The translations under genes were made by a program, and so were the position numbers. Of a stretch of 64,000 bases of DNA, positions 41,263 to 55,538 are shown in pieces; position 1 is the stretch's first letter; each line of letters starts with the position of its first letter. A model generated the notes under the pieces. That model saw nothing but the letters and a program-made list of their open reading frames with translations. It made no database searches and was not told where the DNA came from. Source of the DNA: Streptomyces sp. NBC_01465 (GTDB lineage: Bacteria; Actinomycetota; Actinomycetes; Streptomycetales; Streptomycetaceae); NCBI RefSeq assembly GCF_036227325.1, contig NZ_CP109467.1:7564001-7628000 (forward strand), given 5' to 3'.

Positions 41263-42152
41263 GCGCACCGGCCCCCGCCCGTACGTCGGCCACGGCCGCT
41301 GCTGTGGCCGTGGCACTCGGCTGTGCCGCGCTGCTGGCGCTGCTGACGGCGGTAGTCGTCGTACGGAACGGGACGCCGCTCCCCGGCGACCTGGCCGCAC
41401 ACAACTGGAGCCTCGCGCACCGTCCACCGGTCGGTCTGGCCGTGGCACGGGCGGTGACGGCGACGGGCACGGGCGTCCTGCCGTACGCCATGGTGCTTGT
41501 GGCGGGGCTGGTGGCAGCGGCCGGCCGAACTGCAGGTGCGCTCCCTGCCGGAGGGGCTGAGGGCGAGGCCATGGACGGCGCTCGCCGCACCGATGCGCGT
41601 GATGCGGCAACTGGGCTCCTCCCGACTGAGCGGGTGGCAGCAACCCGCGCTTCGGGTTCCGATGTTGATGCGCACGCACCGCGTCGTCCGGTCCGGAGGG
41701 TGTCTGGCCTGGCGCGCGGGGTCAGCGGGGCGCCGGTCCGCTCCGCCCTTGCCGCGCTTGCCTTTCTCCTGCTTGGGCAGGTCTTGCGGTACGGGCTCAT
41801 GGAGGCCGTCGGGCGCGAGCGGCCGCCGCTCGCCGACTGGGCCACCCATGCGTCCGGTTACTCCTTCCCGTCCGGGCACGCCGCCACCTCCGCCCTGGTC
41901 GCCGGGATCCTCGGGTGGGCGCTGCTCCGGCGGGTCCGGCGTGCCGCCCTGCGCCGTGCTGTCTGCGTGGTCCTCGTCTGCTGGGCCCTTGCCGTCGGGC
42001 TCAGCCGTGTCTATCTCGGCGTGCACTGGGCCGGTGACGTGGTCGCGGGTTGGCTGTTCGCCGCGTCCTTCATCGCCGTCGCGATCGCCTGCACACCCCT
42101 CCTCCGTACCTCCATACGTCTCCCGGAAGTCGCTGCCCTCCGTAGCCGCTGA
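41259..42152 (+). CDS. PAP2-family phosphatase (with 70-residue hydrophilic insertion)
   Basis: 297 residues. KxxxxxxRP is degenerate (EAVGRERPP), but PSGHAA and SRVYLGVHWAGD are intact. Residues 90-160 (41526-41738) form a charged, Gly/Ala/Arg-rich insert between two membrane helices, which PAP2 proteins do not normally carry. The insert keeps frame. The start overlaps the preceding stop by 4 nt. Confidence 0.87.
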   Translation: MSAPAPARTSATAAAVAVALGCAALLALLTAVVVVRNGTPLPGDLAAHNWSLAHRPPVGLAVARAVTATGTGVLPYAMVLVAGLVAAAGRTAGALPAGGAEGEAMDGARRTDARDAATGLLPTERVAATRASGSDVDAHAPRRPVRRVSGLARGVSGAPVRSALAALAFLLLGQVLRYGLMEAVGRERPPLADWATHASGYSFPSGHAATSALVAGILGWALLRRVRRAALRRAVCVVLVCWALAVGLSRVYLGVHWAGDVVAGWLFAASFIAVAIACTPLLRTSIRLPEVAALRSR

Positions 42153-55254: not shown

Positions 55255-55279
55255 AACTCCCCTCTGAACCAGGGGAGTT
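55255..55279. terminator. 9-bp hairpin, likely bidirectional terminator
   Basis: AACTCCCCT (55255-55263) pairs perfectly with AGGGGAGTT (55271-55279) around a 7-nt loop. It follows the NodB gene on the plus strand and lies just beyond the 3' end of the permuted tRNA structure on the minus strand. It has no U-run. Confidence 0.65.
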
Positions 55280-55289
55280 GACCGCACGC

Positions 55290-55302
55290 GTGAGGTGTCC
55301 AG
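55290..55302 (-). other. Outer helix A, 3' strand of the permuted tRNA precursor
   Basis: On the minus strand CTGGAC, A, CC and TCAC read in order; they pair with 55429-55442 (GTGA, C, GG, C, GTCCAG) in 12 pairs, with one mismatch and one bulge. It encloses helix B. Confidence 0.55.
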
Positions 55303-55313
55303 AGATCAGAGTC

Positions 55314-55325
55314 GGCTGCGGAGAC
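55314..55325 (-). other. Outer helix B, 3' strand of the permuted tRNA precursor
   Basis: GTCTCCGCAGCC (minus strand) pairs with GGCGGCGGATAC (55410-55421) in 10 of 12 positions. It lies 4 nt after the D arm. Confidence 0.6.
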
Positions 55326-55329
55326 ATAG

Positions 55330-55408
55330 ATGCTGGGCCGCTGCACCACAGACCGGCCGGAGCCGGTCCGCCGGGATTCGAACCCGGGTCCTCTTTTTGA
55401 AAGAAAGA
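55330..55408 (-). tRNA. Circularly permuted tRNA-Glu(UUC)-like gene
   Basis: Reading the minus strand: anticodon arm 55408-55392 (5-bp stem TCTTT/AAAGA, loop CTTTCAA, U33, anticodon UUC at 55401-55399); variable loop GGAC 55391-55388; T arm 55387-55371 (5-bp stem, loop TTCGAAT); 3' acceptor strand CGGACCG 55370-55364; 8-nt joint 55363-55356; 5' acceptor strand CGGTCTG 55355-55349 (7 bp with one G-U); U8-G9 at 55348-55347; D arm 55346-55330 (GTGC, loop AGCGGCCCA with A14, GG and A21, GCAT). Joined at position 26 these make a normal 73-nt tRNA. The Glu identity rests on anticodon and a D arm resembling actinobacterial tRNA-Glu. No encoded CCA. A split-half remnant of two tandem tRNAs is less likely. 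See findings. Confidence 0.7.
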
Positions 55409-55409
55409 A

Positions 55410-55421
55410 GTATCCGCCGCC
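55410..55421 (-). other. Outer helix B, 5' strand
   Basis: GGCGGCGGATAC on the minus strand, one base upstream of the anticodon arm. It pairs with 55314-55325. Confidence 0.6.
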
Positions 55422-55428
55422 TGCGCAC

Positions 55429-55442
55429 CTGGACGCCGTCAC
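55429..55442 (-). other. Outer helix A, 5' strand
   Basis: GTGACGGCGTCCAG on the minus strand, pairing with 55290-55302. Beyond it I see no clear promoter. Confidence 0.55.
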
Positions 55443-55538
55443 CGTAGCCCGGCCGTGGCCCGGGAGGCATCTGGATTTTCTCGCCCGTATGCGGCCGTGT
55501 GGCGTGCGGGAGCCGTCGGAAAGTCGCAGTCTGGAGTT

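Follow-up and report, generated by a model that had tools for sequence, protein, structure and literature searches.

Within the window, the 64,000-nucleotide stretch of contig NZ_CP109467.1 from Streptomyces sp. NBC_01465 analysed here, the minus strand from 55408 to 55330 carries the parts of a tRNA in permuted order: an anticodon arm, a variable loop, a T arm, the two acceptor strands and a D arm. This order, put forward in the original prediction, was confirmed, and when the piece is joined in tRNA order ARAGORN calls it tRNA-Glu(UUC). The feature had been given a length of 79 nt, but conserved flanks that base-pair with one another extend it to ~140 nt. An outer stem (P1), an internal loop of conserved bases and an inner stem (P2) lead into the tRNA-like part. 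From upstream to downstream, the locus reads as follows:

55441..55446, minus strand: -10-like promoter hexamer TACGGT, a TANNNT motif whose position is conserved in most copies
55296..55436, minus strand: full length of the predicted Y RNA (137.7 bits with covariance model R1, over model positions 1-138 of 138)
55428..55434, minus strand: outer stem P1, 5' strand (99.8% of cells paired, double changes in 5/7 pairs)
55422..55427, minus strand: UGCGCA on the 5' side of the internal loop, most of it invariant or close to it
55410..55421, minus strand: inner stem P2, 5' strand (95.7% of cells paired, double changes in 7/10 pairs)
55392..55408, minus strand: anticodon arm of 5 bp with loop CUUUCAA, read from the sequence
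55399..55401, minus strand: anticodon UUC (positions 34-36), which varies between relatives
55388..55391, minus strand: variable loop GGAC (per-copy parse)
55371..55387, minus strand: T arm with loop UUCGAAU (100% of cells paired)
55362..55370, minus strand: 3' acceptor strand, 9 nt (minimum-energy fold)
55358..55361, minus strand: UCCG tetraloop capping the acceptor hairpin (parse and minimum-energy fold)
55349..55357, minus strand: 5' acceptor strand, 9 nt (alignment and minimum-energy fold)
55330..55346, minus strand: D arm with GG in its loop, preceded by U8-G9 (sequence and ARAGORN)
55314..55325, minus strand: inner stem P2, 3' strand (covariation alignment of 79 sequences)
55304..55313, minus strand: internal loop, 3' side, GACUCUGAUC, with a conserved GAUC end
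55297..55303, minus strand: outer stem P1, 3' strand (covariation alignments)
55255..55279, minus strand: terminator-like hairpin with a 9-bp stem, from a stem search downstream of the element

The two sides of the internal loop (55422..55427 and 55304..55313) form what we take, by likeness to Y RNA, to be the putative Ro60-binding region. Folded as one RNA, 55436-55296 reached -61.5 kcal/mol (z = -2.30), and this minimum-energy fold shows the anticodon, T, acceptor and D arms. The acceptor is drawn there as nine pairs closed by UCCG, so that two joint bases on each side are paired in the window copy, and the "8-nt joint" once placed between the acceptor strands resolves into two further base pairs and a tetraloop.

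We next asked how well this structure is supported across homologous elements. Covariance model R1 was trained on 16 sequences, the window copy among them. Of 184 listed matches at 100 loci, 150 were aligned and 77 carry an anticodon arm ("armed" copies). In the 16 sequences, double changes occurred in 24 of 38 pairs, with 117 double-change cells against 44.5 after shuffling and a covariation score of 0.537 against 0.190 for shuffled and at most 0.121 for slid registers. The score exceeded all 500 shuffles and all slid registers, which supports selection acting on the permuted tRNA fold. An alignment of 79 sequences, which was fitted to the covariance model and is thus biased towards the structure, gave 297 double-change cells against 74.0 and a covariation score of 0.336 against 0.122, with double changes in 12 of the 17 pairs of the end stem (P1 and P2); here too the score was higher than in every shuffle and every slid register. 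When each sequence was parsed singly, all seven acceptor pairs formed in 75/79 copies and all four D-stem pairs in 76/79. Pair counts in the alignment were low for the anticodon helix (65.0%) and the D helix (73.1%), in our opinion because arms of different register share alignment columns. An anticodon arm of 5 bp and 7 nt with U33 was found in 74/77 armed copies, and the same rule found a 5-bp/7-nt arm in 3 of the 68 other full-length rows. The parse gives a small bonus to U33 and A37, and base counts at positions 32-38 were identical without it; for two copies (L057 and L010) the parse gave loops of 11 and 10 nt, which are probably wrong.

Rotated to tRNA order, 78/79 homologous elements were called tRNA by ARAGORN, compared with 0/790 shuffles. 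In a weaker control, with halves swapped between elements, ARAGORN still called 336/395, so ARAGORN alone is no test of the acceptor match. Without rotation, the window itself yields an ARAGORN tRNA-Glu at 55362-55430 and a match to the Rfam tRNA model of 26.6 bits, below the cut-off of 29, as might be expected of an ordinary linear tRNA gene or pseudogene. This call takes part of the end stem as an acceptor, with non-standard pairs there, and only 17/79 copies are called unrotated against the 78/79 called in rotated form. We rejected it for this misuse of the end stem and consider a linear tRNA to have a negligible probability. Other origins for the unit were also set aside. A recent copy of a host tRNA would not fit an identity of at most 66% to 27 host tRNA sequences, a set drawn from 71 genomic matches to the Rfam tRNA model; a tandem pair of tRNA halves, or a relic of an attachment site, would not fit flanks that are conserved and paired, nor homologues that show the same unit; and self-splicing or self-cleaving ribozyme flanks were dismissed because no Rfam ribozyme matched near the element.

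Further tRNA calls lie in and near the window. ARAGORN reports an 81-nt tRNA-Ala(GGC) at 41477-41557, which lacks Rfam support at the gathering cut-off and is likely a false call. Approximately 38-44 kb past the window end, at G000:C1:7666044-7666201 (L138) and 7672088 (L139), low-scoring or unusual genes for tRNA-Ala(GGC), tRNA-Glu(CUC) and tRNA-Trp were observed, possibly from a mobile element.

The original prediction had gone further and interpreted the element as a permuted tRNA-Glu gene, which would give a working tRNA once its transcript is cleaved at the joint and ligated at position 26. The fold is in keeping with this in that it is a complete tRNA fold in permuted order whose reversed halves form a cloverleaf, and the genome encodes RtcB (C1:3539005-3540111), a ligase that could perform the joining. 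Acceptor stems can also be cut by bacterial RNase P, which we counted in favor of this reading. In the permuted tRNA genes of algae and archaea the 3' half likewise precedes the 5' half, and, according to the excerpt of the source available, these RNAs are joined at a bulge-helix-bulge (BHB), cut by RNase P and tRNase Z, and receive an added CCA (PMC3978253). In contrast, no BHB was seen here: by eye, P2 in the minimum-energy fold contains single mismatches, with no 3-nt bulges around a 4-bp helix. The window-copy acceptor is, moreover, a 9-bp closed hairpin with a UCCG loop of the UNCG type and no CCA, leaving production of a translating tRNA-Glu unsupported. A check suggested with the prediction turned up an ordinary tRNA-Glu(UUC) gene elsewhere in the genome (L147), which counts against this reading.

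The acceptor end was also compared across copies. A loop of 3-8 nt caps the acceptor in 77/79 copies, and the stem extends beyond 7 bp in 39/79 copies and in 10 of 17 orphan copies, as copies far from a Ro60 gene are called here (the window copy, itself an orphan, has 9). The triplet directly after the 3' acceptor strand is CUC in the window copy and most commonly CAA (16/79). It is CCA in 13/79 copies, one orphan among them, which lends the permuted-tRNA reading some support; this CCA could be mimicry of a tRNA end or could be chance. In copies such as L047, L048, L055 and L089, the CCA triplet sits inside the capping loop. Against the permuted-tRNA reading, the two ends of the element are part of a conserved stem, interrupted by an internal loop, that is common to Ro60-linked RNAs, its flanks are conserved with those RNAs, and the anticodon varies while the body hardly does (GCA in the nearest orphan relative identified). 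Altogether, we regard a permuted tRNA gene as very improbable. The permuted two-piece tmRNA (RF04321) resembles the element in having a permuted tRNA-like domain in bacteria and differs in that its model scores the window copy at 11.2 bits, below the cut-off of 47; an ARAGORN run over the window found no tmRNA.

Linkage was examined between the family and Ro60, the TROVE-domain protein that binds Y RNAs. Across 150 genomes of the same genus, 146 had a model match at E<=0.001, many of which are background near 1e-4, and 75 had one at E<=1e-8. TROVE was present in 74 of these 75 genomes compared with 7 of the other 75 (Fisher p = 5e-33, a value that ignores the kinship of the genomes), and three of the seven TROVE genomes without such a match have weaker ones at E values of 1e-8 to 1e-6. 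Among the matches of at least 100 bits, 55/72 have their start at a distance of 0.94-1.35 kb from that of a TROVE match, and the remaining 17, the window copy included, are also in TROVE-bearing genomes. The one matching genome (E<=1e-8) of the 75 without a TROVE match, G149, holds a match of the class that lacks the anticodon arm (C2:137818-137957, L116), adjoined by a short unit.

A single TROVE (Ro60) match lies in the genome of the window, at C1:1556376-1556558, and 875 bp from it is another copy of the element (C1:1557433-1557571), with anticodon CAU. The protein resembles the solved TROVE-domain proteins 9kop (E = 4e-29) and 9l5y (E = 5e-29); it covers only part of the TROVE profile (289-351 of 442) and had no match among NCBIfam models. 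The window copy lies 6.06 Mb from this Ro60 gene and so is not adjacent to it. We did not count adjacency, which is usual, as defining, since binding in trans is possible.

At several Ro60-adjacent loci the armed RNA is accompanied by two others, one that has no anticodon arm and a short one of ~70 nt that lacks a tRNA part. The short Y-RNA-like unit has the same outer stem and was observed near the armed and the unarmed units at L013, L026, L028, L012 and similar loci.

Among known RNAs, the element most resembles YrlA (Rfam RF02553; structure 6CU1). In the portions of the sources available, YrlA has a large end stem, to which the Ro60-type protein Rsr binds, and a tRNA-like domain whose D, T and acceptor arms are in circularly permuted order; it is modified by DusA and TruB and links Rsr to PNPase (PMC8394870). 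The structure of a bacterial Y RNA is likewise described, in the accessible part of that paper, as superposing on tRNA with a circular permutation, so that the permuted tRNA-like domain of bacterial Y RNA is already known (PMC11472068). T, acceptor and D arms follow one another in the Rfam YrlA consensus as they do here. Unlike the armed copies, which have a 7-base loop and 19 anticodons, YrlA is described without mention of an anticodon arm in the text available, and much of the L010 anticodon arm is an insertion in the alignment to the YrlA consensus. Animal and Deinococcus Y RNAs also carry a Ro60-type protein on a stem with a conserved internal loop. To our knowledge, the other domain of these RNAs does not form a full tRNA.

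Similarity to RF02553 was detectable at the level of the family. The model matched 6 of 9 loci given to it, of which L034 and L039 hold the same copy, with a best score of 50 bits (L010, E = 1e-8), and 2 of 4 loci in a further set, one of them again the L034 copy. The best scores were 50 for an armed copy (L010) and 56.2 for one of the unarmed class (G080), and the cut-off of 69 was never reached. The window copy, unlike these, was unmatched at E<=10, as were L003, L004 and L025 at E<=1 and the orphans L088 and L101 at E<=0.05. The element has the bacterial Y RNA end stem with its conserved internal loop, belongs to a family found with a Ro60/TROVE gene, and shows permuted D, T and acceptor arms as in YrlA. 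From its sequence, we would classify it as a YrlA-like Y RNA that is not a member of RF02553. We conclude that the element is, with a probability of roughly 85%, the gene for a bacterial Y RNA, which would bind Ro60 (TROVE) by its end stem and present a complete permuted tRNA look-alike with a closed acceptor.

Since the window copy is far from Ro60, it might be a Ro60-linked Y RNA copy that has moved to this locus and is now dead or decaying, and among nine orphan loci compared, flanking sequence was clearly common to only two (L005 and L061), as such a history might produce. The gene-like signals argue otherwise. TANNNT starts 10 or 11 nt before the element in 67/79 copies, and falls within -16..-8 in 69/79 copies compared with 1/79 in a control window, while a perfect stem of at least 8 pairs lies within 90 nt downstream of 12/17 orphan copies compared with 1/17 after one shuffle each. 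Both the promoter-like and the terminator-like signal are intact in the window copy, and from these sequence signals we predict a transcript of its own that would start just before the outer stem and end at the downstream hairpin. The window copy also has the second-highest model score among the matches listed (137.7 bits, as a member of the training set), and by eye its differences from L050, the nearest orphan relative identified, with 91% identity across the element, are compensated in P1 (three pairs), P2, the T stem and the acceptor. Decay is, in light of these data, improbable.

Orphan copies are not restricted to this genome. An unannotated armed copy with anticodon GUC was observed on a 678-kb Streptomyces plasmid (NZ_CP109366.1, 298578-298713), where the 11 features annotated within 6 kb of it, in a gene table that is incomplete by design, include no Ro60 gene. 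From this, it would seem that Ro60 RNAs can lie at a distance from Ro60, even on a Streptomyces megaplasmid. When 61 genomes (the window's own and 60 relatives) were searched at the DNA level, 22 matched, some through short chance stretches, and the longer matches show the same permuted order with flanks conserved on both sides. Matches of at least 100 bits were found in the genus and in one other family of the order. At the level of the order, 77/147 genomes matched at E<=1e-8, and at that of the phylum 11/396 matched at E<=1e-6, eight in the same genus and three elsewhere (46-53 bits). A narrow-pattern scan of genome contigs, from which records near the window's genome may be left out, gave 0 matches, and a phage search found no element.

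We also examined the anticodon arm that sets the element apart. In the seven-base loops (n = 78), U33 is present in 78/78, C32 in 76, A37 in 69 and A38 in 75, while positions 34-36 hold 19 different triplets. The window copy and L050 differ at all three anticodon bases (UUC versus GCA) and share the other four loop bases. In 48 pairs that are at least 95% identical outside the positions compared, and that overlap one another, position 34 varies in 42% and position 35 in 38%, compared with 11% for the capping loop, 7% for the internal loop, 4% for the D loop, 3% for other unpaired columns and 2% for paired ones. Base 36 tracks the body of the RNA: among seven-base loops it is U in 54/59 copies with a GCUC D stem and C or A in 19/19 others. 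U36-A37 is the setting for t6A modification.

Two explanations of this turnover were weighed. In the same Y RNA, the triplet could be unconstrained, the arm serving as a structural element or a handle for tRNA enzymes while positions 34-35 drift freely. In a tree built from 51 Ro60-adjacent copies, position 34 changes 15 times and position 35 14 times, counts reached by 2 of 119 other columns; two capping-loop columns change 16 times each, as free drift would allow. In a tree of 78 copies the counts for 34 and 35 are 27 and 24, which 0 and 1 of 118 columns attain; both trees were built from the short element itself. The capping loop has also caught up in pairs of 80-85% identity, where it differs as much (0.55 versus 0.43 and 0.59 at 34 and 35), and nothing links an anticodon to a partner. 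Against drift, in 25 disjoint pairs of at least 90% identity, positions 34-35 differ in 26/50 cells compared with 35/160 for the capping loop (Fisher p = 1.3e-4), and U36 occurs in 54/59 copies with the GCUC D stem and 0/19 of the others, a tie that means the triplet is not free as a whole. The turnover at 34-35 fits either diversifying selection or a constraint-free site, and the close pairs lean to the former; we hold an unconstrained triplet at about even odds.

By analogy with known Y RNAs, Ro60 would hold the end stem of the Y RNA, and the tRNA-like domain would recruit a tRNA-recognizing partner, which in studied cases is PNPase or tRNA enzymes. The RNA could thus act as an adapter that never becomes a tRNA, and the window copy, far from the Ro60 gene, would act with Ro60 in trans. 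Hughes et al. (PMC7790460) raise, in the text available, the possibility that YrlA is a competitive inhibitor of an anticodon nuclease, and the armed copies would fit this idea. We tentatively consider that the anticodon loop might be bait for enzymes that attack tRNA anticodons, which would account for continued change at 34-35 alongside largely stable bases 32, 33, 37 and 38. A broader and rather doubtful version is that of a Ro60 Y RNA family whose anticodons are under diversifying selection: closed, uncharged decoys might be tuned to the anticodon-cutting enzymes of rivals, phages or the cell itself, Ro60 might tether them to RNA decay or repair, and orphan copies might widen the set of anticodons.

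A clade of Y RNAs with a full anticodon arm, a canonical loop and changing positions 34-35 looks new. Our literature search on permuted tRNA in bacteria, YrlA and Ro60/Y RNA found no anticodon-armed Y RNA by title or opening of the abstract, with key Y RNA papers lying outside the search. Bacterial Y RNAs are known tRNA mimics, and a canonical loop in which positions 34-35 change at least as fast as nearly all other columns directs attention to the anticodon loop as a site of interaction, for which dozens of natural anticodon variants provide direct test material. There is also a practical consequence for annotation, since a tRNA finder may list a Y RNA of this kind as a tRNA, here as a tRNA-Glu and, across the family, in 17/79 unrotated copies. 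One armed relative (L010:1447-1580, minus strand), whose rotated form drew no ARAGORN call, has an 8-base anticodon loop, CUUCCUAA, the sole such loop among the 79.
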